Positions 457-47,224 of a stretch of DNA of 48,341 nt are shown here, one piece after another (position 1 is the first letter of the stretch; each line of letters opens with the position of its first letter). The notes beneath the pieces were generated by a model, which saw nothing but the letters and a program-made list of their open reading frames with translations, did not search any database and had not been told where the DNA came from. A program made the position numbers and the translations under genes. The stretch comes from Alkalinema sp. RU_4_3 (GTDB taxonomy: Bacteria; Cyanobacteriota; Cyanobacteriia; Leptolyngbyales; Leptolyngbyaceae): the NCBI GenBank assembly GCA_012031975.1, contig JAAUSA010000009.1, positions 1-48,341 on the forward strand, read 5' to 3'.

Positions 457-3400
457 TTACCCCCGATCGCAAAGCCTGCGATCGCTCTCCCTCACCGCCG
501 GACTGGTGTGGAGATAATCCTTCACCCAGCGACAGGCGTAGGTTAATTCATTAATGCCTTTAATCTTGGTGAGATTCCAAAGCATCACCTTGCCATCATC
601 CCCCCCCCGACGCCAACAGCTTCCCATCCGGCGTAAAGGCCAAACTCACGACCATCCCCCGATGGCCCGGTAAAATCTTCAATCGTTCACCCTCAGGACT
701 CCAAAGTTTAATCGTATTGTCTACTCCCGCCGTTGCGATCATCCGACCATCAGGGCTCCAGGCCACACGGGTCAAACCCTGACTCTGGGCAGGTCGATCC
801 CAGATCAACTTACCCTGCAAATCCCACAACTTCAAAGTATCATCCCGACTGCCTGTCACCAGCCGATCGCCCCCTGGATTAAAGGCTAATCCCCAGACCG
901 CCCCCTCATGGGCCTTCAAAACCGCGCCCGGTCTCCCATCGCTGTGCCATAGCTTCACCAGGCCATCTTCACTGGCCGAAGCCAGCCAATCCCCCTTGGA
1001 ACTGTAGGCCAATTTCCAAATCCGATCGTGGTGGGCCTCAAACTGGTTTTTTAGCTGGCCCTGGGGGGTCCAGAGTTTGATGCTCTGGTCGTCTCCGGCG
1101 GAGGCGATCGTTTGGCTGTCGGGGCTGATGGCTAGGGCGATCACTTCGGTGTTGTGGGCGACGAATTGTTTGAGGGGTTTTGGGCGGGGAGTGAGCTGCC
1201 AGAGGTAGAGCTTGCCGTCACTGCGTCCGGCGGCGAGGAATTGCCGATCGAGGCTGAAGGCGGTGGTCATGGTGAGGCCCTGGTTGCGATCGAGGTTTTG
1301 ACTACCCTGCTGCGGTTGCCATATCAGAAACTGATCCCCTCCGGCGGCGGCGATCGTCTCGCTGTCGGGACTGGTGGCAATATCCCAGATGGTATCCTGG
1401 GCCGTGGCCAGCAGTTGGGGTAGGAGTAGGTTTTGCTGCCAGAGTTTGACATGGCCGTCTTCGCTGGCCGAGGCTAGGGTGCCGCTCTTCGATAGGGCCA
1501 CGTCGCGGATGATCGATCGGTGTCCCGGCAGTTTGTGTAGGAGTTTGCCATCTTTGTCCCAGAGGCGCACTTCATTGTCGTTGCCGCCCCCGGCGATCAG
1601 CTCGCCATGGGTCGTATCGCGGCAGTCGATGCCCTGGAGGATGGTTTCGGTGGTAATGGTGCGTAGGAGTTTGCCCCCGGAGTCCCAGAGTTTGGCGGTG
1701 CGATCGGCGCTGGCCGAAACGAGGCGATCTTTGTTGCACCAGGCGATGTCCCAGACGGGGCCTTGGTGTTGATTCAGGGTGGTGAGTAGGGTGCCGTCGG
1801 TCTGCCAGAGTTTGATGGTGCGATCGATGCTGGAGGAGGCGATTCGAGTTCCATCGGGGCTGATGGCTACGCTCCAGACGCTGTTTTGGTGGCCTGGGAA
1901 GGTTTTGAGCAGTTTGCCATCGGATTGCCAGAGTTTGACGGTGCGATCGGCGCTAGCGGTGGCGATCTGCCTGCCGTCGGGGCCGAAGGAAACGCCCCAA
2001 ATGGGGGCTTCATGGGCCTGGAATTGCTTGAGAAGCGTTCCGTTGAGTTTCCAGATCGAGAGGTTGCCATCGAGTCCAGCGGTGACGATCTGCGTTCCGT
2101 CGGGGCTGAAGGAGAGGCGAAATACTGTAGCGCTGTGGGGCAGGGTTTGGGCGAGCTGGCCGTTGCTGTGCCAGAGTTTGACGGTTTTGTCGTTGCTGCC
2201 TGTGGCGATCCATTGTTCGTCGGGGCTGATGGCGACGGTGAGGACGCCGCCCCGGTGGCCCGTGAGTTGGTTGATGCCCGGTTGGGATGGGTTGCTGGCG
2301 AATTCGTTAAATTCGCTGCTGCTGTAGACGGCGCGCTGGAGGGCTTCGGTGACTTGGGCCTGGAGGGCTGGGTCGGGGTTAAGGATCGTGGCGAGTTCGC
2401 GTTTGGCACGGATCGCGGCGATCGTCGCTTCGAGTTGATTGTCGTTGACTTGGCTAATGGCGGATTCGGCGAGGGCGCCCACTTCGCGAATGCTGGCCTG
2501 GCGGGATTGCCAGAGGGCAAGCAGGGTAGCGGCGATCGTCAGGAATAGGATGCTGCTGAGGGCGACGAGGAGCTGGCGTTGGAGTTTGTTGGCCTTGGAT
2601 TCTTGGAGGAGGCGGGCCTGGATTTCCTGGGTGCGGGCGGCTTCTAGGGCGAGTTGGACTTCGCGGCGATCGCATTCACTACTGCCCGCTAGGAAACGGT
2701 AATCGATGTCGCTGAGTTGTTTGCCCTGGCTCCAGGTTTGGGCGTCAATTAGGGCTTGGCCCCGTAGGAGTCGGGATTGGTCCTGCTGCTGGGATGCGAT
2801 CCAGGCGTTGAAGGCCTGGGAATAGGGGCGGAGGTTGCTGAGCTGGTGTTTTACCCATGCAAGGGGGAAGACGGCTTCGTAGATTGGGTTTTTGACCTGG
2901 AGGCGATCTCTGCGGTTTTCCACCAAACCACTCAGGAGCAGTTCGGTCTGTTCGGGGCTGGCGTCGGTGACGATGCCTTGGTTTTCCAGCACCTTTTGGT
3001 AGAGGCCGAGGATTTTGCCCGATCGCGATTCCTGGCGCAGGAGGCGATCTCTAATGGTGCGCAGGTGTTCTGGATGGTCCTGGGCGGGCCAATGCTGGAT
3101 GATTTGGGTCTGGACTAGGTCGGATATCCAGGTGGCTTCAAAGCCCTGGGGAATTAGGAGGGCTTCGTCGCGATCGATCCATTGATCTTGGATAAATCCA
3201 CAGATTTTCTGGGTCAGGAAGGGCTGGCCCTGGGTCCATTTGAGGATTTCTGCCATGGTCCGTGTGGGATCTTCTGCGATGTCGGTGAGGCCGTCGGTGA
3301 GGGGCTGGACTTCCTGGGGTTGGAAACCTTGGAGTGCAATAGCGCGGCCAATGTTGAAGGGGGTGCGAGTGCGATCGCGGATCAGTTCTGAGGGGGTGGT

Positions 3401-3946
3401 GGTGCCGAATAAGGCCCAGGTGAGCCGCTGGTAGTCGGGGTCGGAGGCTTGACGGTTGTGGCAGGCGCGGATCAGGGCGAAGAGGTCATCGACTGAAAAG
3501 GGGAGGCTGAGTAAACTATCGATTTCGTCGATGAAGATGACGAGGCGCGGTGTTGGCAATTCTGCTTTGAGGAGTCTGTCGATCAGGCGACTGAGGCGCT
3601 GTAGCGGAGAGAGGGCTTGGTGCTGCTGCCACCAGGTTTGGAATGTCTCTAGGGGCAGGCCAAACCCCCGCAGTAGGCTGGCGGCGATGCTGCTGTACCA
3701 TTGCTCGGGGGTGATGGTTTCGCTGCCGATGCTGGAGAGGTCGATGGCGCAGCAGCGCAGGCCCTGGGCTTCGAGTTGGACCTGGGTCTGGATGCGCAGG
3801 CTGGATTTGCCCATTTGGCGGGCGTTGAAGACGTAGCAAAGTTCCTGGGCCAGCAGGGCGTTGTATAGCTCAACGTCGGCCTGTCGGGTGACGTAGCAGC
3901 TTGAATTTTTTCTGAGGCTTCCGCCCACTTGGTAGTGGTGAGGCAT
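457..3946 (-). CDS. AAA-like ATPase with 14 WD40 repeats; frame broken near its 3' end
   Basis: This is a cyanobacterial AAA-like protein fused to a WD40 domain, probably a signalling or scaffold protein. The N-terminal ATPase has a Walker A-like segment (FNARQMGKSSL) and Walker B (VIFIDEIDSL). A single membrane helix follows (VALSSILFLTIAATLLALW), then 14 WD40 repeats, enough for two seven-bladed propellers. The frame as sequenced stops at 596, inside the last repeat, in a run of nine C on the plus strand (600-608). With eight bases the frame would read on through GGDDGKVMLWNL, which completes blade 14, and through a tail containing ACRWVKDYL and ESDRRLCD to a stop at 457. Such a tail is usual for these proteins. 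I prefer the start MPHHYQVGG at 3946, because the upstream start at 4030 runs into the Uma2 gene. Confidence 0.85.
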
Positions 3947-4002
3947 GGAGGTGGCGATTGCTAGGGAACTGTTCTCTAGCTTACGGCTTTTTGGGGTGTG
4001 GC

Positions 4003-4662
4003 TTATTGCTGGATCTGGGTCATCAGCCAAGCCATGGTGGCGGATTGGTTGCTGCTTCGGCGACGTTCGAGGGTTTCTTTGAGGAGGCCTAATTCTAGAC
4101 CAGGGATGACTTTGGAGGTTTGGATGCGTTGGCTGACGCCGATATTGCTAATTGAAAAGGCGATGATTTCGCAGGTTTTGACGCTGACGATCCAATATTC
4201 TGAAATGCCGAGTTCTTCGTATTGCAGTCGTTTTTCACCTTTGTCATCGCTCAAGGTTGTGTCTGAGATTTCGATGACTAAGCTGGGTAGGGGATGGATA
4301 TCGAGGTTGATGATGTGGGTTCCATTGGGAATTGCATCAACGTTGATACCTGTGTAGCAGGAAATGTCAGGTTGGCACTCATCATGGCCAGTTTTGCGAT
4401 AGGAACAGGCATCATGACAGTTGATGGGAATTTCTCGAACCATGGCATAGAGTCCGATCGCCAGGATGATGATGGTGTGGTCTCTGGAATGATCGGCTCC
4501 CGTGGACATGGCTTCAAACCTCATTGCGCCTTTGTGATAGTAGCCTTTAGATTTGGCATGGGTTGGATCGTCGGATAGCTGGACGAATTCCTCCCAGGAA
4601 GCCGTGATCCAGGTGTCCATGGGGACTTGGGTGGATGGGGGTGAGGGGGCGATCGGGCTCAT
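4003..4662 (-). CDS. Uma2 family (DUF820) putative endonuclease
   Basis: This 219-residue protein belongs to the Uma2/DUF820 family, which is greatly expanded in cyanobacteria and has a PD-(D/E)XK nuclease-like fold. The central core is recognisable: ECQPDISCY (usual form PDv), then PSLVIEISDTTLSDDKGEKRLQYEELGISEYWIVS, where the acidic residue, the VIEISD strand and the lysine of the K..Y...GI.EYW element sit in the usual order. Residues 1-18 are low complexity and the real start may be M15 (MDTWITASWEEF). The function is unproven; members are often linked to mobile DNA or defence. Its 3' end nearly touches the AAA/WD40 gene on the same strand, so the two may be co-transcribed. Confidence 0.85.
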   Translation of the reverse strand: MSPIAPSPPSTQVPMDTWITASWEEFVQLSDDPTHAKSKGYYHKGAMRFEAMSTGADHSRDHTIIILAIGLYAMVREIPINCHDACSYRKTGHDECQPDISCYTGINVDAIPNGTHIINLDIHPLPSLVIEISDTTLSDDKGEKRLQYEELGISEYWIVSVKTCEIIAFSISNIGVSQRIQTSKVIPGLELGLLKETLERRRSSNQSATMAWLMTQIQQ

Positions 4663-17784: not shown

Positions 17785-18399
17785 CTATTCCAGCCCAATT
17801 TGCCCAGCCAGCTTTTCCAACTGTTCCAACCCGCGTAAGGATCCACCAATCAGTTTCATGGCCCGCAGGGGGGCCCGCAGCATCGCCAGGGCCAGCTTAA
17901 TCGGTAGAAGATTACCGTCAGCATCGATGGCCCCACTCAAATCCGGCAGATCCTGGGCCGCAGAGTCACTCACCACCCGCAGCATTGAGGTTTTGTTGGG
18001 AAACGCCCGCGCTATAGCCACCCCTTCCATATCCACCACATCCCCCAGATGCGCCAACCCCTGTTTTTCCTGGGCAGTGGTCAGAACGCGATCGCTCGTC
18101 ACCCCCCGCACAGGTTGACCCAGCCCCTCAAACCCCGCCATCATGGGCCAAACCTCTCCCGAGAGCGTTTGACAACAGGTGTAAACCACCGCATCCCCGG
18201 CGTTTAACTCCGGATCTAAGGCACCGCACAGACCCATGACGATGATTCGATCGGCTGCGATCTCCTGGGTCTTCAGCCACCTTGTAACCGGAACGATGCC
18301 GATCGGAATGGCAAGCACAGCAACAGACGAGGTCTGGCCCAAACCTCGTCGCACTGCTTTATATTCCGAACCCTGGGGGACTAGAACGATCGTGTTCAT
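17785..18399 (-). CDS. hpnG: HpnG-like phosphorylase-superfamily nucleosidase
   Basis: This 204-residue protein of the PNP/MTAN nucleoside phosphorylase superfamily shows GLCGALDPELNAGDAVVY (the G.CG.L....GD.V element) and VVDMEGVAIARAF (the DMEG/A substrate motif), followed by RVVSDSAAQDLPDL. In hopanoid producers HpnG cleaves adenine from adenosylhopane to give ribosylhopane. The neighbours hpnA and hpnH on the opposite strand make that role likely here. The general MTA/SAH nucleosidase role is the alternative, since this branch is divergent. The start codon overlaps the stop of the upstream small exported-protein gene (TAATG), so the two are coupled. Confidence 0.75.
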   Translation of the reverse strand: MNTIVLVPQGSEYKAVRRGLGQTSSVAVLAIPIGIVPVTRWLKTQEIAADRIIVMGLCGALDPELNAGDAVVYTCCQTLSGEVWPMMAGFEGLGQPVRGVTSDRVLTTAQEKQGLAHLGDVVDMEGVAIARAFPNKTSMLRVVSDSAAQDLPDLSGAIDADGNLLPIKLALAMLRAPLRAMKLIGGSLRGLEQLEKLAGQIGLE

Positions 18400-18815
18400 T
18401 AGGGCATGGTGAAGATTGGCACCTTGGCTCCGATCGCATTGGGATCCATGGGCGTCCCCACAAACGGCTGGACATTGCCCAGGATATTAAACACTGGAGT
18501 CTGGGTATCTTGGCGTGTTTCACCCTGGGGCCGCTTGAGATTACCCTCTGGGCCACCGCATCGGCCATAGCAGATTCGAACAATCGAAATTGCAGGTGCT
18601 TGGGGGACCTGCAATTCTATCCCCGAGCCCGGAACCACAGGCGGAGCAGGAATGCTGCCTCCAGGACCCACTGTTCTCGGTTCCGTTTTGAGCAGGTCCT
18701 TGGCACTAAGCTGCTGGCTAGAAGTCGCCACTGGCGCGGCAGCCTGGGCGATCGCGCTCGATCCCAGCAATGCCGCAAAAACCGTCACCGTCATCATCCG
18801 AAACATACTTTTCAT
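18399..18815 (-). CDS. Small exported protein coupled to the HpnG-like gene
   Basis: A 138-residue product with a clear signal peptide (MTVTVFAALLGSSAIAQAAA) and a proline/glycine-rich mature part (PAPPVVPGSGIELQVPQAP). It contains one cysteine pair (RICYGRCGG) and ends in IFTMP. I recognise no family. A ribosome-binding site (CAGGAG) precedes the ATG. The one-base overlap with the HpnG-like gene suggests a shared mRNA, which is odd for an exported protein and a cytosolic nucleosidase. Coding character and the signal peptide make it real; its function is unknown. Confidence 0.75.
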   Translation of the reverse strand: MKSMFRMMTVTVFAALLGSSAIAQAAAPVATSSQQLSAKDLLKTEPRTVGPGGSIPAPPVVPGSGIELQVPQAPAISIVRICYGRCGGPEGNLKRPQGETRQDTQTPVFNILGNVQPFVGTPMDPNAIGAKVPIFTMP

Positions 18816-18969
18816 GATGTTTTCTCCTGAGGGGAACGTGGGATCTTACGACCCGGTCACGTGGAATGGTATATGTAGTCAATTCTAATCAAGCGCGCGT
18901 CAGCAAACGGTAAAACCGATGGTGATCGCCCAAATTGTCATTTTTCCTAATGTTTAGCAATCAAGGTAT
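18816..18969. promoter_or_regulatory. Divergent promoter region between the HpnG pair and hpnA
   Basis: The 154 bases between two divergently transcribed genes must hold both promoters. The sequence is AT-rich near hpnA (TTTTTCCTAATGTTTAGC) with an unremarkable ribosome-binding region. I do not see an operator palindrome that I could name. Confidence 0.5.
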
Positions 18970-19953
18970 ATGAAGGTTTTTGTCACGGGGGGAACGGGAT
19001 TTGTCGGGGCCAATCTGGTGCGATCGCTGCTGGATAAGGGCTACGAGGTGCGGGCGCTGGTGCGAGGTGCGAGCGATCGCGCCAATCTCCAGGGTTTAGA
19101 TGTGGAAGTTGTTACAGGCGACCTAAACGATCCCGACCTGGTGCCCAGCCTCCGGGGATGCCAGGCCCTCTTCCATGCGGCGGCCCACTACTCCCTCCTA
19201 CAGAAGGAGCGCGATCGCCTCTTCCAGATCAATATCCTCGGCACCCGAAACATCCTCCGAGCCGCTCGGGAGGCCGGAGTCGAGCGGGTGGTCTACACCA
19301 GTTCCGTGGCGGCGATCGGCGTCCCAAGTGACGGCTCCCTGGCGGACGAAACCTACCAGTCATCGCCCGATCGCCTGATTGGTGCCTATAAGCAATCGAA
19401 GTACTGGGCCGAGCAGGAGGCAAGGAAGGCCATGGACCTAGGCCAGGACATTGTGATTGTCAGTCCGAGCAGTCCGATCGGCCCCTACGACATCAAGCCG
19501 ACACCGACCGGGGACTTGGTGCTGCGTTTTTTGCAGGGACGGATGCCCGCCTATGTGGACACGGGGCTGAACTTTGTGGATGTGCGGGATGTGGCCCAGG
19601 GGCATATTCTAGCCCTGGAGAAAGGGGTGGGGGGCGATCGCTACATTCTCGGCAACGAAAACCTTTCCCTGAAGTCAGTTTTAGCAATGCTGGGCACCAT
19701 CACGAGTCGAAAACCGCCCCAATGTCAGCTGCCCCTTTGGCTGCCCCTGGGCATCGCCTGGGTCGATGAGAAAATCCTGGGCAGCCTGGGCAAAACCCCT
19801 TCTGTGCCCATCGATGGGGTGCGCATGTCCCGGCAAAAGATGTTTTATAACCCGTCAAAAGCCGTCAAAACCCTAGGCCTGCCCCAAACTGAGGTGGCGA
19901 TCGCCCTGGCAGATGCTGTAGATTGGTTCAAGCGTAATGGCTACGTTCAATAG
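18970..19953 (+). CDS. hpnA: HpnA, hopanoid-associated sugar epimerase
   Basis: This 327-residue extended SDR-family protein has the Rossmann motif VTGGTGFVGANL at the N-terminus, ALFHAAAHYSLL around residue 70, TSSVAAIG for the catalytic Ser region and the active-site pair in YKQSK (YxxxK). The strings SPIGPYDIKPTPTG and DTGLNFVDVRDVAQGHILA are typical of HpnA. The family is thought to act on the sugar side chain of bacteriohopanepolyols, though the exact reaction is not settled. It starts two genes of an operon with hpnH, 27 bases apart. Confidence 0.9.
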   Translation: MKVFVTGGTGFVGANLVRSLLDKGYEVRALVRGASDRANLQGLDVEVVTGDLNDPDLVPSLRGCQALFHAAAHYSLLQKERDRLFQINILGTRNILRAAREAGVERVVYTSSVAAIGVPSDGSLADETYQSSPDRLIGAYKQSKYWAEQEARKAMDLGQDIVIVSPSSPIGPYDIKPTPTGDLVLRFLQGRMPAYVDTGLNFVDVRDVAQGHILALEKGVGGDRYILGNENLSLKSVLAMLGTITSRKPPQCQLPLWLPLGIAWVDEKILGSLGKTPSVPIDGVRMSRQKMFYNPSKAVKTLGLPQTEVAIALADAVDWFKRNGYVQ

Positions 19954-19980
19954 GCATCTTTCTAATCCTGTGAGGAGATT

Positions 19981-20997
19981 ATGGCGGTTCAATTACAGCA
20001 GGCTCTCTCGATCGGCAGTTATCTACTCAAGCAGCGCGTCACGGGGAAAAAACGGTTTCCGCTGGTCCTGATGTTGGAACCCTTGTTCCGCTGCAATTTG
20101 GCCTGCACGGGCTGTGGCAAGATTCAGCATCCCAAGGAAATCCTCGTCCAAAACCTGACCCCCGAGCAATGCTTTAAAGCGGCAGAAGAATGTGGCGCGC
20201 CCGTGGTCTCGATTCCAGGTGGCGAACCGTTGCTGCATCCGCAAATTGACGAAATTGTCGAGGGTTTAATTGCCCGCAAGAAATACATCTATCTCTGCAC
20301 CAATGGAATTCTGCTAGAGAAGATGATGCACAAGTTCAAACCCTCGCCCTATTTCACCTTTATGGTGCATTTAGACGGCATGCGGGAATGGCATGATCAA
20401 TGTGTCGATCGCAAGGGCGTTTTCGATATCGCCGTGGCAGCCATTAAAGCCGCAAAGGCAGCAGGATTCCAGGTCAATACCAATACAACGGTCTACGACG
20501 GTGCCAAGCCGGAGGAAATTCAGGAGTTCTTTGATTTCCTGGCGGACTTGGGCATCGACGGGATGCAAATTTCGCCGGGTTATAGCTACGAATGGGCACC
20601 GGACCAGGAACATTTCCTAAAGCAAGAGGGCACCCGTCAGTTGTTCCGTCAAATCTTGGCCCCCTACAATGCGGGTAAAAAGCCAAAGTGGCAATTTAAT
20701 CACAATCCGTTGTTTTTAGATTTCCTCACTGGAGAAAAGGACTACGAATGCACCCCCTGGGGCAGCCCGAGCTACAGCGTGTTGGGTTGGCAGAAACCCT
20801 GCTATTTGCTGAATGAGGGTCATGTTAGTAGTTTTAAGGAACTGACAGAGCTGACCGACTGGAGCAAGTACGGCAAAAAGAGCGGCAATCCCCAATGCCA
20901 GGATTGTATGGTCCATTGTGGCTATGAACCGACGGCGGCGATCGATGCGTTGCAGCCGAATAATATGGGGAGGGCGATCGGTGCGTTGTTTGGGTAA
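19981..20997 (+). CDS. hpnH: HpnH, radical SAM adenosylhopane synthase
   Basis: This 338-residue radical SAM enzyme joins the 5'-deoxyadenosyl group to diploptene, the first step in extending the hopanoid side chain. The iron-sulfur cluster cysteines are in CNLACTGC (residues 38, 42 and 45). [11 protein letters not shown] is the GGEP SAM-binding motif. A C-terminal cysteine-rich segment ([14 protein letters not shown]) is typical of HpnH. A strong GAGGAG site lies three bases before the ATG. With hpnA upstream and an HpnG-like gene divergent, the three cover successive side-chain steps. Squalene-hopene cyclase is not in the window. Confidence 0.95.
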
Positions 20998-21087: not shown

Positions 21088-24000
21088 CTACCAGGGATTT
21101 CCCACCATTGTAAACCCTGACCAGTAATAGGGATGACTAAATACCTTTGTACCCTCGATCGCCAACCCCTTCGGCAGAGTCACTACTCCTTGACTGGTCA
21201 TTAATCGATCGCCCTCAATCCTTACCTTCCCATCCCGTAAACCCGCCTGTGCTGCCCTCAATGCATCGGTCCGCGAAGGCTGCTGCCTCAACTGGGTATA
21301 AAACTCTGACATCAACGCTAAGGTTCCTAAATCCGACACTTGCCACAGACTGCCCATGGCTGTCTTCACGCCCGATAGCGCCGCCAATCCCGTAAAGCCC
21401 AGTTCTGCCTCTGGATTCCCCGTCGCGGTATTACAGGCACTCAACACCAGTAATTCTGGCGCCAAAGCCTCTAAATTCAGATTGTGAATTTCTTTGAGGT
21501 GGAGCGATCGATCCCAAAGATGAATCAATGACTGATCCGGACTGCCCTCATTAAATTCTGCATGGGTGGCTAAATGTAAGATGCCTGGTTGTCTTAGCCG
21601 CAGTGCCTGCAAAATTCCGTTATAGGTAAACTGCTGATTCAATAACCCCGCCTGTCCTCCAAACTGTCGCTGAATCGCCTCTAATTCTAACGGCACCGCA
21701 GGCAGGGGCTCTTGGCCTTTGATATTATCGGATCCCATGGCTAATACTGTCTGATTCTTTAACAATTTCACCCGCTGATCCAATAGCCCCAAACTCGGTA
21801 CCACCGATATTCCATAGTGATTAATGGCCCAGTCGTTATGATGATTCATTGCGGCCACAGGCACCGATCGCAATCCCTCATCCAACACATAGATCAAGGT
21901 CTGGGTCTTCGCTCTCCTCAAATCTGACTCGATCGGCTGCAACAACCACTGATAAAACTGATTGCCAAACACTGGAAAGCTCTGACTGTTTTCCACATCA
22001 TCATTAATCAAGCGGAAATTAGACATCTCCTCTGCGATTTGCGATCGCGTAAAAGCTGTCGATCGCCGCACCACCTTCCCCTCGGGATGGACAAACACCA
22101 AATCTAGGCGATCTCCTGGACTCGGATTGCGGGCTCTAAGCAGATTTGGTATTGCACCACCTCCCTCGGCCTGCTGATTCGGCACAATCACCGCTGGGAC
22201 AAATACCGCATAGATCACCGCAGGCTTCAGTCCCGACTCCCCACGAATTTTACGTAGCGAATCTTGGATTGATTCACCCGTTTGCCGACTCCTAGCTGTC
22301 AAGCTCCCCTGGGCATAATTCTGAAATTCCTGGGTAAAGCTATCATCTAAGGTCGTTAAACTATCTACAATAAATGGGTTGGCTGACAGTTGAAATTCAG
22401 ACTTTTGAAATTCAGACTTTGGCTCGATCTCAGGAGGTTTGGGAACTGCGGACTTGGGTGGCTTCGGTGAAGGTGGTGGAGTGACGGGAGGAACCACAGG
22501 AGGGACTACAGGAGGAACTACAGGAGGGACTACAGGAGGTAAACTATTTGTTAGAGAGAATTGTGTTGCGATCGCTGTCTGTGGATTCGTCCCAAGCTGC
22601 GCCTGCACATTGTAAGAACCTGCTTCAGCATTGGCCATTGGAGCGACTTGAGCAATATTATTGGCGATCGTCACAATTTTCTGATTCTCTGGCAACATTG
22701 CACTTGGACCTGTTATTGGGGTCGAGAATAGAAGCTGCCCACCGTTTACGGGCTCATTGAATAGACTAGATATAGAGACCTGTAAGGGTGCTGAAAAGGC
22801 CTGATTAATCAGTGCTGTTTGGCCATTGCCTGACTGCGGCGACAGGATAAAGCCTCGGGATTCAAAGGCCCCAATATCAATGGCGCCAATGCGTGCCACC
22901 CCTCGCTGATCAACCGTTAGGGTGGAATTACCTGCATCTATCGCTGGGCTGCCTGGCAATAGCGCATAGGCTGTGCCAAATGGCGACAGTAAGGGGATCA
23001 CTGGGGAAGCTACTGTGCCGATCAGCGGACTAGGGGCAAATCCGATGGCACCTTCACTGACTCCAATTAAATTATTCCCCTGGTCGATTATCCCAGCGGA
23101 TACATCGGCATTGAGCGCAGCAGTATTATTGGCAATCAAACTATTCTTAATACTCGTGTTCGAGGGCATCAAAGCTCCCAAGCCACCCCATCGACCAAAC
23201 CCGTTGCCATCGGCATCAGCTACATTTTCTGTGATGGTTACACTGTCTAAATTGAGGTTGGTATTATTATTGTTCAGGCCACCCCCTCGACCATTGGCTC
23301 TGTTTTTTGCGACGGTTACGTTGGTTAAATTTGTGATCGATTGGGCAATGGAGAGTCCACCTCCATCGGAACTGGCTTGATTGCCGAGTAGGGCCGATCG
23401 ATCGATCGCCAAGACACTAGTTAGCGTTTGAGGATTGAAGTCGATGCCGCCGCCATTGGCCCCAGATCTATTTTGTTCGATCAAGCTCTCAGTGATCGTG
23501 AGCATGCCATCAAAGCCATTGTAATCCTGGACCCCAATCCCGCCACCGTTTGAGGCCGATTGGTTGCCTCGGATGGTGGTTCGATTGATTCCGAGATGGG
23601 TGACACCGCCGACACTCAAGCCACCGCCGTTAAATTGGGTGGCTTGGTTCCCATCAATTAAGGAATTATCGATCAACGCATTGGATTTATCGCTTAGAAA
23701 CAATCCGCCCCCTAGCTGGGCTTGATTATTATTGAAGTGGCTATTCAATATAGTTGCTGTCTGCGAAGTCGAGAATAATCCACCGCCTATGCTTGCTTGA
23801 TTTCCGCCAACTTCGATCGCTTGGGCATCGATTGCACCTTCAGAAAAAATGCCCCCGCCATTGCCCCCGGCAGTACTATTTACAACAGATGTGGTTGTAA
23901 TATTTAACTGACCTAATCCAGCGGAATTCGTAATAAAGATAGAACCGCCGCGATCCCCGGCATTATTACGGTTGAGGTAGACCTTCTCAATACTGGTATT

Positions 24001-26466
24001 GCCACTCGAAAAGATGCTGCCACCATCTCGACCACTTTGATTGTTCTGGACCGAAGCAATCTCGACCCTTAAGGCGCCTTGATGTTGGTAGATTGCCCCC
24101 CCATCTGTTGCGGCGCTGTTACTATCTAGTCCCACTTCCAGGATAGAGGTTGTTGCGCGATCGGCATAGATTCCACCCCCTTGGCCGAGCGATCGGCTAG
24201 CGGTGAGTGCTGCAAAACTAAGGTTGAGCCTACTATTGGCAGCGCTATAAATCCCGCCGCCCTTATCCGTCGCCAATCCATCATGGAGACCCAACTGGGA
24301 AATATCTAACGTAGCATTAGCTTCATTGGCGACCAAACCACCTAAAATAGCGCTACTATTACTAATTTCCCCACCCTGAATGGTCATCTTGCCATTGTTG
24401 TCGTTTCGAATACTGCCCCCGGAGATTGTTGCCTTATTTTGCTCAAAGACGCTGCCCAAGATAGTAAAAGGTGTGCTAGCGTTTGAACTATTTTCGATCG
24501 CTCCACCATATTGAGCTTGATTCCCCCTGAAGTAGCTATTTTTAATTGTGACCATGCCCGTGGCTCCTAAATCACTGCGAACGGCTCCTCCATCAATATC
24601 CGCACGGTTATCTAGAAAGCTACTCTGGGTAATTGATAGAGTTCCTTGATTATTAACGGCACCTCCCGAAAAAGGTGTATAACCCCGGCTAATTCCAATA
24701 GTCTCTAAGGTTAAATTCCCATTGCTTAAGACTTGAATCGGCTGTACTGTATTTTGTCCATCCAGTACGGTGTTATCTTGATTTTGACCGATGATGCTCA
24801 CTTGTTTGTCAACAATAATTGGTGAGGCAATGGTGTATATAGCTGATGGCAGATTAATTGTTCGTTGGCCAGGGACATTCGCGATCGCATCTAAGGCATT
24901 CTGAATCGAACTTGCCGGGGCCACGGTTTCAGTGTTGACGGTGTTTAGGTTAAATGTCAAAGCCCCTGTGCTGGTCAGGTTAATCTGTGCCCCTGTGGGA
25001 TTGGTAAATCGTCGTCCTGTAAGGGTGAGTTGGGCTGTGCCGTTGCCCGTTTGGTTGATTGAGTCGGTGAGGGTAATGTCGCCAGCATCGACTCCGGCTC
25101 CAGCGGTGGAAAGGGTGACATTGGTGCCTGTGTCGAGGGTAGTGGCGATCGCCCCAGGGGTGACAGTGCCGCCTACATTCGCAATATTAATATCCGTGGG
25201 ATCGAGCAGCCATTCGCCGTTTTTACCGAGTGTTGTACCCGCATTGACCTGGGCGTTTTGAATATTGAGGGTTTGTTTCCCAGAGGTTTCGATTTTGCCG
25301 CCGTCGCCGCCTTGGGTGCCTGCGCGCGCTGTGGCGGTTCCGGCAAACTGGGTACTACCGTCGGACCAGATCACGATTTTGCCGCCGTCGCCTTGGAGTT
25401 TGCTATCGGCCTGGATGTTGGTTTTGTCATCGGCTTGTACAGTTTTGGCGCGGTAGGTTTCACCTTTGCCTTGGAAGTCACCGCCGATCGCAATTTTCCC
25501 GGCTTTGAAACTCCCGCTAGCGTCAATGTTGGCTTCTTGGAGCTGGATGCGTTCCCCGGTGATATTGATTTGGGAGGGGTTTTGCTGCGCTGCTGTGGAG
25601 AGTTGACCCGAAACGATCGCATCCCCTGCTGATTTTGCCTCGACAACTTTGCCTGAGCTGAGGCGAACTTGGCCATTTTCGACGGTGAGTCGGGTGGCGT
25701 TTTGGACAGATTGGCCTGTTAGGAGTTCGGGTAGTTGTGTGGGGGTGAGAGGTGCCGGGTTAATCGCGGTTTTGTCAGAAAGTGGCAGATCTAAACTCAG
25801 GACTTGGCCCTGGGGTGTGAGTCGGACGTGTTGGTCGCCGGGGAGGGCGGCGATCGTGATGGTGCCGCCAGGAGCGTTAATCGTGCCTGTGTTAAGGATG
25901 GTGCCGCCGAGGAGGGTGAGGCTTTGGGTGGGGGCGACGGAGAGGGTGCCTGTGTTGACGATCGCGCCGGAGTTGCTGAGTCCGAAGGCTGTGGGGTTGC
26001 CTGTGAGGCGACTGTAGTCGGTGGTGCTGGCCGAGAGCCACTGGCCGGGGCCGAATTCGATGCCTGGGGCTGTGGTGGCGGTGAAGGCGGCTGGCAGGTT
26101 GAGTGTGGCTGTGGTGCCGAAGAGGATTCCGGCGGGGTTGATTAAAAATAGATTGGCGGGCGCTCCTTGGATTTGGAGACGACCGTTAATGACCGAAGGG
26201 AGGCCACCTGTGACGCGGCTGAAGATGTTGGCGATCGCGGGATTCGCTTGAAATATAGCTGTCTGGCCCGCATCCAGGTTGAATTGCTGGAAACTATGGA
26301 AGAGGTTGCTGCCGGATTGGTTGCCGCCTGTGATGGTGGTGGCGCCGCCGCTTGGGGTGACTTGGGTGGCAGGACTGTCGGGAATGATGGTTTGGGCCAG
26401 GGCGCTGGGGCCGAAGGTGGCGATTATTGCCAGACTGACCAGCAGGCTGTGGATATTTGTTCGCAT
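21088..26466 (-). CDS. Secreted two-partner-secretion / beta-helix protein with C-terminal CHAT protease domain
   Basis: This 1792-residue protein has a signal peptide (residues 1-25, ending SALAQ) and a filamentous-haemagglutinin TPS domain (about 26-250) with FQQFNLDAGQTAIFQANP, NRVTGG-like IFSRVTGGLPS and LFLINPAGILFG. A long right-handed beta-helix follows (about 540-1200, many NNQA..GGGI repeats), then a PVVPP-repeat linker near 1309-1330 and a C-terminal CHAT domain (about 1500-1792). The caspase-like dyad is visible: His1635 in HLATHAEF and Cys1678 in LVLSACNTATG. TPS proteins cross the outer membrane through a TpsB porin, which is not in the window. Peptidase activity and target are inferred, not known. 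TPS-CHAT fusions exist in cyanobacteria but are poorly understood. The linker and the neighbouring KSEFQ duplication are repetitive DNA. Confidence 0.9.
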   Translation of the reverse strand: MRTNIHSLLVSLAIIATFGPSALAQTIIPDSPATQVTPSGGATTITGGNQSGSNLFHSFQQFNLDAGQTAIFQANPAIANIFSRVTGGLPSVINGRLQIQGAPANLFLINPAGILFGTTATLNLPAAFTATTAPGIEFGPGQWLSASTTDYSRLTGNPTAFGLSNSGAIVNTGTLSVAPTQSLTLLGGTILNTGTINAPGGTITIAALPGDQHVRLTPQGQVLSLDLPLSDKTAINPAPLTPTQLPELLTGQSVQNATRLTVENGQVRLSSGKVVEAKSAGDAIVSGQLSTAAQQNPSQINITGERIQLQEANIDASGSFKAGKIAIGGDFQGKGETYRAKTVQADDKTNIQADSKLQGDGGKIVIWSDGSTQFAGTATARAGTQGGDGGKIETSGKQTLNIQNAQVNAGTTLGKNGEWLLDPTDINIANVGGTVTPGAIATTLDTGTNVTLSTAGAGVDAGDITLTDSINQTGNGTAQLTLTGRRFTNPTGAQINLTSTGALTFNLNTVNTETVAPASSIQNALDAIANVPGQRTINLPSAIYTIASPIIVDKQVSIIGQNQDNTVLDGQNTVQPIQVLSNGNLTLETIGISRGYTPFSGGAVNNQGTLSITQSSFLDNRADIDGGAVRSDLGATGMVTIKNSYFRGNQAQYGGAIENSSNASTPFTILGSVFEQNKATISGGSIRNDNNGKMTIQGGEISNSSAILGGLVANEANATLDISQLGLHDGLATDKGGGIYSAANSRLNLSFAALTASRSLGQGGGIYADRATTSILEVGLDSNSAATDGGAIYQHQGALRVEIASVQNNQSGRDGGSIFSSGNTSIEKVYLNRNNAGDRGGSIFITNSAGLGQLNITTTSVVNSTAGGNGGGIFSEGAIDAQAIEVGGNQASIGGGLFSTSQTATILNSHFNNNQAQLGGGLFLSDKSNALIDNSLIDGNQATQFNGGGLSVGGVTHLGINRTTIRGNQSASNGGGIGVQDYNGFDGMLTITESLIEQNRSGANGGGIDFNPQTLTSVLAIDRSALLGNQASSDGGGLSIAQSITNLTNVTVAKNRANGRGGGLNNNNTNLNLDSVTITENVADADGNGFGRWGGLGALMPSNTSIKNSLIANNTAALNADVSAGIIDQGNNLIGVSEGAIGFAPSPLIGTVASPVIPLLSPFGTAYALLPGSPAIDAGNSTLTVDQRGVARIGAIDIGAFESRGFILSPQSGNGQTALINQAFSAPLQVSISSLFNEPVNGGQLLFSTPITGPSAMLPENQKIVTIANNIAQVAPMANAEAGSYNVQAQLGTNPQTAIATQFSLTNSLPPVVPPVVPPVVPPVVPPVTPPPSPKPPKSAVPKPPEIEPKSEFQKSEFQLSANPFIVDSLTTLDDSFTQEFQNYAQGSLTARSRQTGESIQDSLRKIRGESGLKPAVIYAVFVPAVIVPNQQAEGGGAIPNLLRARNPSPGDRLDLVFVHPEGKVVRRSTAFTRSQIAEEMSNFRLINDDVENSQSFPVFGNQFYQWLLQPIESDLRRAKTQTLIYVLDEGLRSVPVAAMNHHNDWAINHYGISVVPSLGLLDQRVKLLKNQTVLAMGSDNIKGQEPLPAVPLELEAIQRQFGGQAGLLNQQFTYNGILQALRLRQPGILHLATHAEFNEGSPDQSLIHLWDRSLHLKEIHNLNLEALAPELLVLSACNTATGNPEAELGFTGLAALSGVKTAMGSLWQVSDLGTLALMSEFYTQLRQQPSRTDALRAAQAGLRDGKVRIEGDRLMTSQGVVTLPKGLAIEGTKVFSHPYYWSGFTMVGNPW

Positions 26467-26583: not shown

Positions 26584-28869
26584 TTACGCGGGGTAAAAAC
26601 GAGTAGCAACCACCGCGATCGGCAGTTGGATCACAAATTCCGTGCCCTGTCCCCGTTGGGAATAGCAGAGCAAATGGCCTTGGTGCTTGTCCGTGATGAT
26701 TTGGTAGCTGATCGCCATGCCCATACCCGTACCATGGCCCACGGGTTTGGTGGTGAAGAAAGGATCGAAAATGCGGTGCTGGATTTCGGTGGGAATGGCT
26801 GGGCCGTTATTGGCAATTCGGATCGCCACTTGACTTGGGGAAATTGCCTCCGTCGTGATCACAATCCGGCGGTCCTGGTCAGGTGCGAGTTCATTGAGGG
26901 CATCAATCGCATTAACCAAAATATTCATAAACACCTGATTAATCTCACCCGCTAGACATTCAATCAAAGGCAAATCGCCATAGTGTTTGACAATCTCAAT
27001 GGCTGGAGGATGATTAATCCGACTTTGCAGAATCATCAAAGCGCTGTCAATCCCCCTGTGCAAATCAACGACTTTCAACCCCGTCTCATCTAAGCGAGAG
27101 AACGATCGCAGGGATTCCACAATCTCGTTGATCCGTTCCGTGCCGAGCTGCATGGAGTCTAATATTTTAGGAAAATCCTGCCGCAGAAAATCCAAGTCTA
27201 TGGCCTCTATCACCTGGCTTATTTCGGCTACAGGTTCAGGATAGTAGGTTTGATACTGTTCAACCAATTTCAATAAATTGGCCACATAGGCTTTTGTATA
27301 ATCCACATTGCCATGGATAAAATTCACAGGATTATTAATTTCATGGGCAATCCCAGCGACCAACTGCCCCAAACTCGACATTTTCTCATTCTGAACCATT
27401 TGAGCCTGGGCGCGCTTCAGCTCCTGAAGGGTCTGCTGCAAGGCCTTGCCCTTCGCCCGACTGTCATTGTAGAGTTCGGCTTGATCGATGGCGATCGCCA
27501 ACTGATAGGCCACGGACTGCACCAGCACCACCTCATCATCGGTCCAACTATGGGGCGCCTGTCTGTGGTCACAGAGAATTAGCCCGTACTGATTGCGCTG
27601 GGTTTTGATCGGAATACAAAGGCGTGATTGGGTGCCCTGGGCTAGCAGGAAATTCGGATGCTCCCCATCGTTGTGTTCAAAGCGATCGAGGCGCAATGTT
27701 TCGAGATTCAGGACAATACTATCCATTTCCCCAACCACGACCGAAGTATATTGCCCCACCCAGCTTTGTCCATCCCAGCTTTGATCCTCCACCACATTCC
27801 AACTTGAAGGCGAGCTTATTGGGTCATACCAGCAAAAGGCACACCAATCCACATCCAGCAATTCTAACAGTGCTTTAATCGTCGTTTTGAGAATCGTTGT
27901 GATATCGAGGGTGTTACGGATTTGGGCGGTAATCCGATGGAGGAGGGCCTGCTGGTCTGCAAAACTATGCAGGGCGGCTTCAGCCGTCTGGCGGGCGGTG
28001 ATATCTTCGATGGTGACTAGAATCCCGGTAACCAGGCCTGACTCATTGTGGAGGGGGACTTTATTGGTATTGAGAATGACCTGTTGCCCATCGGCCTGGT
28101 GCTGGGTTTCGATAATGTTGAATTCAGCTTGACCCGATTCCATCACGCGGCGATCGCACAGTCGATACCAGTCCGATTCCTCAGTCGTCCAGGGCATGTC
28201 ATAGTCGGTTTTGCCCACCACCAAGTCGGTGGATTTCAAACCACAGGCAACCAGGGCTGAGCGATTACAGCCTTGGAAGACGAAATTGCGATCTTTCCAG
28301 AAGAGGGCGATGGGAATTTCGTCTAGGATTTGCTGGAGTAGCTGGGAGGTTTGACGCTGGGGTGCCGTTGGGAGATCGCTAATCTCCGTAATGGTGACCA
28401 GGATATGGGTAATCGTGGGATTGTGCAGGGGATTGATGGTTAGGCGCCAGGTCAGTCCCCCTTGGTCAAACGGTTCCTCCACGGTGAGGGACTGGTTGGT
28501 AGTGGCGGCGATCTGATAGTGTTGGCGATAGTTCTGGGCCATTTCTAGGGGAAATGCCTCCGCCAAGGTTTTGCCCAGCAACTGATCGGTGGGCCAGGGA
28601 CTAAGCTGCTCCATTGCCGGATTAAATGCCACAAACCGAAATTCCTCTCCCGCCGCCAACACTTCCATCAAAAACATTCCATAACTCACGCCTTCCCACA
28701 GCTGTTCCAATAAAAACGGCTGATCTTGGAAAAAATGGGAATCAGGCAGGGGTACAAAGGACTTATAGGCTGACTGACTTAACATGGGTAATGGGGATTT
28801 AATCGTCTTTAGAGCAGGGGAATATAGCCCAGAATGCCCTACTTTAAAGGCAACATCACCTTGGTTCAA
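26584..28869 (-). CDS. PAS-PAS-GAF sensor histidine kinase
   Basis: This 761-residue soluble hybrid sensor, without receiver domain or membrane helix, has two PAS domains (about 45-170 and 180-300, the second with the ALFWKDRNFVFQGCNRSAL pattern and a trailing ILVTIEDITARQ). A GAF domain follows (about 320-475), then a coiled coil and the kinase core. The phospho-acceptor is His509 in AGIAHEINNPVNFI. The ATP-binding boxes are NQVFMNILVNAIDAL (N), IFDPFFTTKP (F) and GHGTGMGMAIS (G). The extended insert between H and N boxes with FSRLDETG.K.VDLH is typical of cyanobacterial kinases. No response regulator is adjacent, so its partner is elsewhere. M29 (MLSQSAYKSF) is an alternative start. Confidence 0.93.
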   Translation of the reverse strand: MNQGDVAFKVGHSGLYSPALKTIKSPLPMLSQSAYKSFVPLPDSHFFQDQPFLLEQLWEGVSYGMFLMEVLAAGEEFRFVAFNPAMEQLSPWPTDQLLGKTLAEAFPLEMAQNYRQHYQIAATTNQSLTVEEPFDQGGLTWRLTINPLHNPTITHILVTITEISDLPTAPQRQTSQLLQQILDEIPIALFWKDRNFVFQGCNRSALVACGLKSTDLVVGKTDYDMPWTTEESDWYRLCDRRVMESGQAEFNIIETQHQADGQQVILNTNKVPLHNESGLVTGILVTIEDITARQTAEAALHSFADQQALLHRITAQIRNTLDITTILKTTIKALLELLDVDWCAFCWYDPISSPSSWNVVEDQSWDGQSWVGQYTSVVVGEMDSIVLNLETLRLDRFEHNDGEHPNFLLAQGTQSRLCIPIKTQRNQYGLILCDHRQAPHSWTDDEVVLVQSVAYQLAIAIDQAELYNDSRAKGKALQQTLQELKRAQAQMVQNEKMSSLGQLVAGIAHEINNPVNFIHGNVDYTKAYVANLLKLVEQYQTYYPEPVAEISQVIEAIDLDFLRQDFPKILDSMQLGTERINEIVESLRSFSRLDETGLKVVDLHRGIDSALMILQSRINHPPAIEIVKHYGDLPLIECLAGEINQVFMNILVNAIDALNELAPDQDRRIVITTEAISPSQVAIRIANNGPAIPTEIQHRIFDPFFTTKPVGHGTGMGMAISYQIITDKHQGHLLCYSQRGQGTEFVIQLPIAVVATRFYPA

Positions 28870-29678: not shown

Positions 29679-31822
29679 CTAGCCTACTTCCACGACTTCC
29701 GGTGAGAACGTCGGAATCACCTGGGCCTGGGGCAACGGCATCTCTACGCCATTAATCACCGATCCGAGCAGGTCCACATCCTCCGACTCAGAAAACCCAT
29801 TGAGCGCCTCCGCCAGCAAACTCTGGGAGGTCACCCCAGGCCGGGTGACGATCACCATGCCATCGGTAAAGGGCTCCAGCAGCATGGCATCATTGCATTT
29901 CGACAGCGCTGGCACATCCAGCACCACAAAATCAAACCTTCCCCGAGCATCCTCTAGCAAGCGGCGCATTTCGCTGGACTCGATAATCGAAGCGGCCTGG
30001 CGCTGGGGACCACAGCTCGGCACCACATAGAGATTCTCCACCATCGGCGCCATGGCAATGCAGTCACTAATTTGCCCGTAATAGCGCAAAGGTTCCAACT
30101 GGGCATCGGGATTGGGTTGGATGCCAACAAAATGGGCAAGAGAGGCCGATCGCACATCCGCCTCGATCAACAGAGTGCGTTTGCCAACGCGGGCGGAGCG
30201 ATCGCCAAATTATAGGCCGTCACCGATTTGCCTTCTCCGGGCAACACGCTCGTGAGCATCACCATGCGGGGATTGCCATTTTCGGGCCGCCGCAGCAGAC
30301 TGCGAAAGCGCTCGTAGGCGTCAAAATAGGGGGACTCCTGCATGGATAGAATGGCTCCACGCCTTGGATCATCCAGGGACAAAACCAAGGGCAACACCCC
30401 CAGCACAGCAATTTCCTGCTGTTTGAGAGCGTCTTTGATATCTTCGGGCGTATAGAACATGCCCTCCAGCATATCCAGCAGGAAGACCGCCCCGGCCCCG
30501 AGGATTAAACCGACCAGACCGCCGATCGCCATCATCACGGGCGCACTCTTCGGCGCCTTCGGCGGCAGAGGCGGCTGCATCACCTGGGCGAGCGATAGAC
30601 TACTGACCGTCTCCGCCTCAGCGGTTTTGGCATCCACCAGCTTGGCCTGCATTTGATCGTGCAAAGCCTTTTTGAGCTTGAGCTGGTCCTCTAAGCGTGC
30701 CCGCGCCAATTGCTTATTTGGAATCTGGGTCAACTGCTGCCGCGAATCCTGCTGGAACCTGGCCATCGACTGCAACTGCTGCTGCAAGCGTTCCTTGCCC
30801 GTCGTCAGCTCCACCAAACGCAGGGCCAATCGCTGCCGTTCTGGGTCTAGATTACTATCCTGGCGCACATTCGCCGTACCCAGGGGCGCCGCAAACCCAC
30901 CACCGCCGATCACCTCATTGGCCCGCTGCTGCAACTGCACTTCGTAGGCATCCTTCTGCTGCTGCAACAGCACCATGGTGGGATGCTCTGGCCGCAGATC
31001 CTTCGCCTGCAAGGTCAACTGCGACTCTGCCTGATAGATTTTGGCCCGCAGATCCGCCACGATCGGGTCCGCACTCAAGGCCGAGGACACATAGGCCTGA
31101 TTCACCGACAAACCCAGCTTCTGCTGGAGACTGGCCACCTCGGCGTTAATCCCCTCCAATTCCAGCCCCATCTGCCGCTGCTGGCCATCACTCTGCTGAA
31201 TCTGGGATACCAAACTGCCATTTTGGGCGGCAAACAACGCCGGACCTTCAGTGCGATCGTATTCCTCCAAAGCCTGTTCCGCATTGGTCAAATCCGCCTT
31301 GACCTGGGGCAGACGCTGGTTGAGGGAATCGATTACCGATCGCAGTCTGGCCGTATTGTTGGCCTTACTTTGATCGATGGCGCTGCGCACCAGCAGCTCC
31401 ATCACCTGCTTGACCCGACCTTGATCGCTGTCTTTATAGTCTAGTTTGAGCTGGCCGCCGCCCTCGGGGACCGCCGCCGCTTTCTTACCGCCCTCGGCCC
31501 CTGGCAGGGTGACTTTCAGGTTGCGAATTAGAACCTTGGGATCGAGACCCACCTTTTTCGAGGTTTCCTTAATCACCGTTTCCGTCAGCAGGGACTCCGC
31601 CGTAAAGGATTCCAGGGGCTGGCGAATTTCCGAACCCGTGGCGGAAAAGATCGTCGGGGGGCGATTGTTGACGAGTATGGCTTGAATCGTATGGGTGGGG
31701 GGTGGATCGGGCTGGGAGACTGCAAACCCGCCCCCGGCGACGCCCAGGACAATACCCACGGGAATCGCCCAGGGATAGCGGCCCAGGGCCAGGAGATAGC
31801 GTTTAAGGATAGGGGAGGCCAT
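29679..31822 (-). CDS. Wzc-like polysaccharide co-polymerase / BY-kinase-type ATPase; one frame break
   Basis: Repaired length is about 714 residues. The N-terminal Wzz-type chain-length domain has a first membrane helix near residues 17-34 and a second near 428-448 (GGLVGLILGAGAVFLLDML), with long coiled coils between them. The C-terminal ATPase has Walker A SVLPGEGKSVTAYNLA and a later FVVLDVPALS (Walker B). The frame breaks near 30197, beside a GCGATCGC site: AYNLAIA is followed by the wrong frame until IEADVRSAS. One inserted base restores ASARVGKRTLLIEADVR, as in CpsD/Wzc. There is no C-terminal tyrosine cluster, so kinase autophosphorylation is doubtful. It acts with the Wza-like protein just upstream to control polysaccharide length and export. 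Confidence 0.85.
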
Positions 31823-45544: not shown

Positions 45545-47224
45545 TCAACGGATCGCCATATTCTGAAGCTTATCAATTAGGTCGCCCCGTCGAAAAGTAG
45601 CCGAAAGCTGCTGCAAAGAAACATCCTGTCCCCCATAAAGATCCCTAAGCGCCGCCTCAATATCGCCCACCGAAGCATCAAAGTACTGCTCCCCCTTCTC
45701 CTCCAGCATCCGATGGGCAGCTTGAAAATTCTGGTGACTAACATCCTTCCTCTGGATCTTCATATCACCCAGCAGCCTCCGCCCCATCTGCATCGCAATA
45801 AAACAAGAAGCATAACGCACAAGATCCGGATCATGGGACTCTGGCCGCTTCCGCCGATTCTCTGCAATCCTGTACAATTCAACCGCCAGCACAACCTGTG
45901 CCCCATTAAGCTGGTCAGTAAAGATCGAACCATACAACTTACCAAAATGCTCTCTCGCAAAAAATCTAGCCTGGTGAGGCTTCTCCTGCCAGACCGAAAG
46001 CACAGCCTCCGCCGCCACTCCTGACGTAATATCCGTCGATCGGGTACTCCCATCAGACCGCTTACGCCGATAGCGATATCCCAACTGCTGAATATCCATC
46101 TCCAATCTTTGCTGGATCTGATCATTCGCCCGCAAATCCTTCAGATCCACAGGGTTTTGGCTATTGGTCGCATAGGTGATTTTCTGAACTAGATCGTTAT
46201 TATCACTCGGTAGCTGATAGAGCCGCAGTAGAACATAGGCTTGGACATCTCGTTGCGATAGATTCAGCTCCTGTAAGGTCTTAGCGATCGTGATACAAGT
46301 CTGCCCACCGTTGATAATTTGCAGATTTTCGATTCGCACCTGATAATCACCATTCTGCAACGCATTATAGGAAAAATTATCACAGGTTAGCGTCACGCCA
46401 TTATTATAAAAATAGAAATTACTCTCTTCCCCACCCATCAAAGTCTGCCGGATATCTTCATTAACCCGATTCCCTTGCAATCCTAAATAACGTCGGATAT
46501 TACGCTCTAGCAGTCGATCGCCATAGCGCTCAATTAGCGTTGAAATCTCAGCAACCGAAATTCGCCCGACCAGCACTCGGCTAAACTCCATATCCTCAAC
46601 GATCGCTTTACCACTGAGCTGCAAAGTCTCTTTGACGGGTCTAGAAGCTTGCAAAATCTTAACTAGACGTTCATGATTAACATGTTCCCAGGTCACCTGA
46701 TCGCCAAACCCTGTCCGCTTAATCGCCTCCTCAGCCGCAGTACTCCACTTCAGTCCATTGTTACAAGCCAATGCTCTAACCTGAGGAATGTAGCCATCTC
46801 GAATCAAACTACGAGCTGATTCCACCTTGGCTAGCAATCGTGCATTAATATGATTTAATTCTGTAGTGGGATCGAACAGATACTTGACTGCCTTGATTAA
46901 ACTCTCAAGACCATTTTCCGGAAAGTTCGCATCACCTTCTAGATTATTCTTGTACTTCCCCTGAAACAGACTAACAGTGAATTCACCGTCGTATTCCTCA
47001 GAGATATGCATGGCATCGACACCAAAATCCCCAGCCCCTTCGGTCAAACAGTCGAACGCATCATCATCATCTAAATCTAGAATAGTTGTGACACACAGAT
47101 AGACAAAAGCCAAGGACTTAAGCTTGCCCGCCTCATTAATATGGAGTTCCTGATCAGCCTGTAGCCGAATAGCGTCAGTGACTGCACCTAGACGCTGGTC
47201 AATAATAGAGGCATTGATATCCAT
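45545..47224 (-). CDS. AIPR family phage-resistance protein with N-terminal nuclease-like motif
   Basis: This 559-residue AIPR (abortive infection phage resistance) protein carries the core family blocks RNIRRYLGLQG (about 241-251), NFYFYNNGVTLTCDNF (269-284), LQIINGGQTCITIA (301-314) and YATNSQNPVDLKDLRANDQIQ further on. The N-terminal region has GAGDFGVDA (residues 63-71) and, 17 residues later, SLFQGKYK (85-92), the D..GVDA...Q.K arrangement of Mrr-like PD-(D/E)XK endonucleases. I infer a nucleic-acid-cleaving defence effector. The gene stands alone between relics and repeats, with a normal start at 47224. AIPR members are known from abortive infection systems but the mechanism is not established. 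Confidence 0.88.
   Translation of the reverse strand: MDINASIIDQRLGAVTDAIRLQADQELHINEAGKLKSLAFVYLCVTTILDLDDDDAFDCLTEGAGDFGVDAMHISEEYDGEFTVSLFQGKYKNNLEGDANFPENGLESLIKAVKYLFDPTTELNHINARLLAKVESARSLIRDGYIPQVRALACNNGLKWSTAAEEAIKRTGFGDQVTWEHVNHERLVKILQASRPVKETLQLSGKAIVEDMEFSRVLVGRISVAEISTLIERYGDRLLERNIRRYLGLQGNRVNEDIRQTLMGGEESNFYFYNNGVTLTCDNFSYNALQNGDYQVRIENLQIINGGQTCITIAKTLQELNLSQRDVQAYVLLRLYQLPSDNNDLVQKITYATNSQNPVDLKDLRANDQIQQRLEMDIQQLGYRYRRKRSDGSTRSTDITSGVAAEAVLSVWQEKPHQARFFAREHFGKLYGSIFTDQLNGAQVVLAVELYRIAENRRKRPESHDPDLVRYASCFIAMQMGRRLLGDMKIQRKDVSHQNFQAAHRMLEEKGEQYFDASVGDIEAALRDLYGGQDVSLQQLSATFRRGDLIDKLQNMAIR

Follow-up and report, generated by a model that had tools for sequence, protein, structure and literature searches.

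Most of what is known about CHAT proteases concerns enzymes that work inside the cell, separase and Craspase among them. In a 48,341-nucleotide stretch of DNA from the cyanobacterium Alkalinema sp. RU_4_3 (contig JAAUSA010000009.1, positions 1 to 48,341; here called the window), one long open reading frame (ORF) joins a CHAT domain to the secretion domain of a two-partner secretion (TPS) exoprotein, or TpsA. The locus raises the question of what a caspase-like protease would be doing at the tip of a protein built for secretion. The best explanation overall, to which we give an even chance of being correct, is an exported surface protease whose activity is gated by its shaft and which possibly feeds envelope signaling.

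Architecture and predicted fold of the TPS-CHAT protein

The gene occupies the minus strand, which corrects the first-pass annotation; frame inspection found many stop codons on the plus strand across 21088-26466. The layout proposed in that annotation (an FHA-type secretion domain, a β-helix shaft, a PVVPP linker, and a CHAT domain) was recovered in full by Pfam, NCBIfam, structural models, and reading of the sequence, and the positions it gave for an intact dyad, His1635 and Cys1678, were exact in the sequence. The features are as follows.

21088..26466, minus strand: TPS-CHAT fusion protein, 1792 amino acids (aa), ATG start (ORF and translation, Pfam, NCBIfam)
26392..26466, minus strand: Sec signal peptide, residues 1-25, ending in GPSALAQ (sequence and homolog pattern)
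25792..26376, minus strand: TPS secretion domain, residues 31-225 (Pfam PF05860, E 3.9e-42; fold match to the EtpA, HxuA, and FHA secretion domains)
25087..26391, minus strand: predicted TpsA-type first β-helix, about residues 26-460 (AlphaFold2 model and EtpA fold match)
23167..25032, minus strand: predicted second right-handed β-helix, pectin-lyase/alginate-epimerase-like, about residues 479-1100 (model and fold search)
22858..22968, minus strand: choice-of-anchor Q segment, residues 1167-1203 (NCBIfam NF041518, E 7.6e-14)
22486..22536, minus strand: linker of four overlapping PVVPP units, residues 1311-1327 (sequence)
21091..22377, minus strand: CHAT module and preceding helices, residues 1364-1792 (Pfam and model)
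21097-21966, minus strand: Pfam CHAT core, residues 1501-1790 (PF12770, E 1.1e-60)
21562..21564, minus strand: codon (CAT) of His1635, the predicted catalytic histidine (sequence; kept in 108/108 homologs)
21433..21435, minus strand: codon (TGT) of Cys1678, the predicted catalytic cysteine (sequence; kept in 108/108 homologs)

The TPS and CHAT match scores are too large to be due to chance, and the architecture is visible in a plain Pfam run. NCBIfam additionally placed an FHA-type N-terminal domain (adhes_NPXG) at residues 56-134, and a 12-bp tandem repeat (22487-22539) underlies the PVVPP linker. A promoter and terminator scan found no excess over shuffled sequence.

The shaft was modeled with AlphaFold2 over residues 26-1210 (model mdf3c1a1545f4; pLDDT 81), and the model consists of all-β coils. 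In fold searches, the secretion domain of EtpA aligned with positions 1-441 of the model at a Z score of 31.6, followed by HxuA (Z 27-29) and the FHA secretion domain (Z 25.5). Residues ~479-1100 resembled alginate epimerases (Z about 26), a likeness of the predicted second β-helix that reflects a common fold only. The window protein has the features common to the TpsA exoproteins FHA, HMW1, EtpA, and HxuA: a signal peptide, an N-terminal TPS domain directly behind it, and, in the predicted structure, a right-handed β-helix shaft. It differs from them, however, in ending in a caspase-like CHAT domain and in that a gene for the partner transporter, TpsB, is usually not adjacent.

The CHAT module, modeled with AlphaFold2 over residues 1347-1792 (model m47f5e428c190), was predicted with high scores (pLDDT 91; pTM 0.91), with low-confidence loops surrounding the protease. 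This model matched Csx29/TPR-CHAT at a Z score of 29 over 332 residues, separase at 25, and the secreted gingipain RgpB at 19. Csx29 and separase were reached by fold search only, whereas a search of the PDB with the CHAT sequence profile found no relative. The dyad of Csx29 is formed by H615 and C658, and mutation of both abolishes cleavage (PMC10028731). The His and Cys of the window protein are likewise 43 residues apart, and Cys1678 is the sole cysteine in the entire 1792-aa protein. By profile, predicted fold, and dyad spacing, the domain is a predicted CHAT cysteine protease of clan CD.

Csx29, from the type III-E CRISPR system Craspase, has the CHAT fold and the dyad spacing, but the window CHAT is predicted to be exported and sits on a β-helix instead of a TPR, with no CRISPR link seen and no detectable profile sequence match to Csx29. 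Separase has the same fold and His/Cys protease type but is itself eukaryotic and intracellular, without TPS or β-helix. The gingipains RgpB and Kgp (Z 18-19) are secreted caspase-fold cysteine proteases that differ in family and architecture; they leave the cell by type IX secretion.

Conservation and predicted export of the family in Cyanobacteria

Relatives came from two sources: ~45 genomes belonging to the same family or class, and 80 named cyanobacterial loci, for which the search patterns did not contain the dyad. The first-pass annotation had named common loss of the His/Cys pair as a refuting result, and this was not seen: both residues are kept in 108/108 distinct TPS-CHAT fusion proteins, a collection in which degenerate homologs may be under-sampled because it was gathered by similarity to intact CHAT domains. 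CHAT is the last domain, at the C terminus, in all 108, and 97 of them have His and Cys 43 residues apart. In the aligned homologs, conservation covers the first 400-450 residues and returns in the CHAT domain, which is the best conserved part (61% mean column identity). The intervening shaft is variable, and anything between 197 and 2603 aa separates TPS end from CHAT start. The same layout is found widely among Cyanobacteria, in dozens besides the source organism.

Several variants accompany the standard layout. In 17 of the 108 proteins, the TPS domain lies past residue 250, with a GT2 glycosyltransferase-like region in frame ahead of it. Proteins in which the signal peptide and TPS appear to be internal, preceded by such a region, are those of L120, L124, L125, L126, L132, L136, L138, L140, L141, L144, L146, L148, L150, L151, L161, L180, and L221. 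This arrangement is odd for a TpsA; GT2 was assigned by PF00535 in L146, by phmmer for L180 and L221, and by eye for the other loci. Unfused versions also occur, at L089 (TpsB, CHAT, TPS) and L166 (TpsB, TPS, CHAT), each with a separate CHAT that has a signal-peptide-like start. In the genome with the closest CHAT relatives (G007), a CHAT gene and a TPS-CHAT gene lie in tandem (L109). In the source genome, other TPS/CHAT and TpsB loci (L093, L094, L095, and L089) appear broken into adjacent frames, possibly as pseudogenes or through assembly errors. In a tree sampled by similarity to fused CHATs, the fused CHATs all grouped with short exported CHATs in a single clade that had a support of 0.90 (1.0 for the wider clade), and most TPR-CHATs branched elsewhere; a single origin of the fused CHATs, as this sequence tree may suggest, is a lead only. 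Viral contigs yielded no relative, and a viral origin was rejected.

Composition argues that the fused proteins are located outside the cytoplasm. A signal-peptide-like stretch directly precedes the TPS domain in 91 of the 108, compared to ~37 expected from shuffles, although the heuristic is crude. The catalytic cysteine is the only cysteine of the mature (exported) part in 59/108, and the number of noncatalytic cysteines is even in 102/108. These cysteines occur at 0.72 per 1,000 aa, versus 9.4 in other ORFs, with just 6 across 36,828 aa of CHAT sequence. From the signal peptide, TPS, and scarce, even-numbered noncatalytic cysteines, a pattern to be anticipated for exported proteins with a catalytic thiol, we infer an extracytoplasmic location. 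The first-pass description of the protein as secreted holds for its build, which is that of a two-partner secretion substrate; export itself is predicted. The search for TpsB, which that annotation had proposed, found no copy on this contig; the rest of the genome carries three intact TpsB-like ORFs of the ShlB type, along with fragments. Among the fused loci, TpsB is adjacent in 6/102, and at one of these loci (L179), the end of the TPS-CHAT gene overlaps a TpsB gene.

A protein that instead remains periplasmic and finds its targets in that compartment, CHASE2 receptors being one example, is in our judgment improbable, though worth weighing. The rarity of TpsB beside fused genes fits this possibility, as do the GT2-fused variants and the signal-peptide-like starts of unfused CHATs beside TPS genes; an intact TpsA fold, the overlap at L179, and the TpsB genes of the source genome argue against it. 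We are about equally doubtful that CHAT cleaves the linker or shaft of the protein it belongs to and so releases the shaft or itself. Auto-processing is known from other caspase-fold enzymes, and both the flexible proline-rich linker and the low-confidence loops around the protease would suit such a role, but the linker consensus contains no conserved cleavage-like residue and the TPS-to-CHAT distance varies more than 10-fold.

Gene neighborhoods of TPS-CHAT genes

A PAS-PAS-GAF-HisKA-HATPase sensor kinase gene (26584..28869, minus strand) lies 117 bp upstream of the TPS-CHAT gene on the same strand. The first-pass annotation was thus right about the adjacency, but the kinase is not a conserved neighbor: a few fused genes have a homolog of the kinase domain nearby, but neither the entire protein nor its position is conserved, and we rejected it as a functional partner. 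Other genes in the window include an adjoining hopanoid cluster (HpnG-like ORF, HpnA, and HpnH; 17785-20997), a chain-length determinant/tyrosine autokinase (Wzc-like; 29679-31822, minus strand) that seems to be split by a frameshift into 551-aa and 163-aa ORFs matching successive parts of TIGR03018, an AAA_35-WD40 repeat protein (596-4030, minus strand), and an AIPR family protein (45545-47224, minus strand).

At the level of the family, two other genes recur. CHASE2 proteins were found near fused genes in 27/102 loci and exported DUF928 proteins in 20/102, whereas the densities of these genes in seven complete or near-complete genomes predict ~3.7 and ~2.6. In the same seven genomes, linkage was compared with 2,000 random shifts. 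Of 49 DUF928 genes, 33 had CHASE2 no more than 15 kb away (random-shift mean, 2.9; maximum, 14), and 16 lay near TPS (mean, 2.0; maximum, 9); of 36 unfused TPS genes, 20 had CHAT inside the same 15-kb distance (mean, 2.4; maximum, 11). Fused genes alone were weakly linked to CHASE2 (3/12 versus 0.7 expected; shift maximum, 4). The outputs of the 27 CHASE2 neighbors include GGDEF (10), nucleotide cyclase (7), EAL (3), TIR (2), histidine kinase (2), and CHAT (2). For Nostoc punctiforme, a paper has reported CHASE2 and DUF928 side by side with WD40 genes as neighbors, and it makes no mention of CHAT (PMC5587647). The window's own contig carries neither CHASE2 nor DUF928, so the link applies to the window gene by family only; in the source genome, matches to CHAT, TPS, DUF928, CHASE2, and TpsB share contigs such as C89, C342, C86, C206, and C239.

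In several genomes, CHASE2 ORFs contain a weak, partial CHAT-like domain (for example, the 837-aa ORF at G025:C1:5112519-5114327). Such matches indicate that some CHAT-like domains are divergent and would fit a noncatalytic CHAT that serves as an interaction or structural module; for the fused proteins, we consider this very unlikely, given a dyad that is universally kept in proteins otherwise nearly free of cysteine. Least likely of all is contact-dependent growth inhibition, the killing function that the first-pass annotation had suggested, in which CHAT would be a toxin delivered into neighboring cells in the manner of CdiA-CT: CdiA proteins also combine a TpsA shaft with a C-terminal effector domain, and some relatives carry several fused copies per genome, but the TPS-CHAT tip is the conserved part of the protein, where a CdiA-like toxin would be polymorphic, the gene is not followed by one for immunity (the next gene downstream is the convergent HpnH), and no small downstream gene recurs other than DUF928 and TpsB.

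A proposed shaft-gated surface protease

Computation establishes the gene, its architecture and fold, an intact dyad kept across the family, a composition that speaks for export, and gene linkage at the family level. Returning to the exported, shaft-gated protease, we infer from there a course of events that runs from export through regulated cleavage of a substrate to any role in signaling. Sec, and TpsB encoded elsewhere in the genome, would carry the TpsA-type exoprotein through the outer membrane. The β-helix shaft would then present the CHAT cysteine protease, via the proline-rich hinge, on the cell surface or within the envelope. Recognition of a ligand, a neighbor, or a matrix component is the most likely task of the variable shaft, which by analogy with the TPR part of Csx29 probably also controls when the protease cuts. 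The substrate would be a protein of the envelope or surface. Across the wider family, CHASE2 receptors and DUF928 would plausibly receive the signal from this cleavage; the evidence for the step from protease to CHASE2 signaling is gene linkage. A fuller version, which we offer tentatively and regard as possible but not probable, makes the protein the outer part of an envelope signaling route: a contact-activated protease whose product would act via DUF928 on CHASE2, changing c-di-GMP or cyclic nucleotide levels or triggering TIR or CHAT outputs. With the same reservation, the protease of this route would be either fused to a TpsA shaft or encoded beside one.

TpsA exoproteins with a caspase-like tip appear not to have been described before. 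In the open literature (as distinct from subscription papers and database annotations), no paper paired the CHAT domain with either filamentous hemagglutinin or two-partner secretion, and a keyword search of the main texts of exoproteome papers found no mention of TPS-CHAT proteins. The open literature likewise held no description of linkage between CHASE2/DUF928 and CHAT, and DUF928 was mentioned in one paper only.

If true, a CHAT family mounted on exported adhesin-like shafts would place caspase-like proteolysis on the outside of bacteria. The strong linkage of TPS, CHAT, DUF928, and CHASE2 genes provides a context for the uncharacterized DUF928 family and makes outside-in proteolytic signaling in cyanobacteria directly testable. 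Collectively, the layout of these proteins and their frequent membrane-sensor neighbors point to an undescribed form of protease-based sensing or remodeling of the cell surface.
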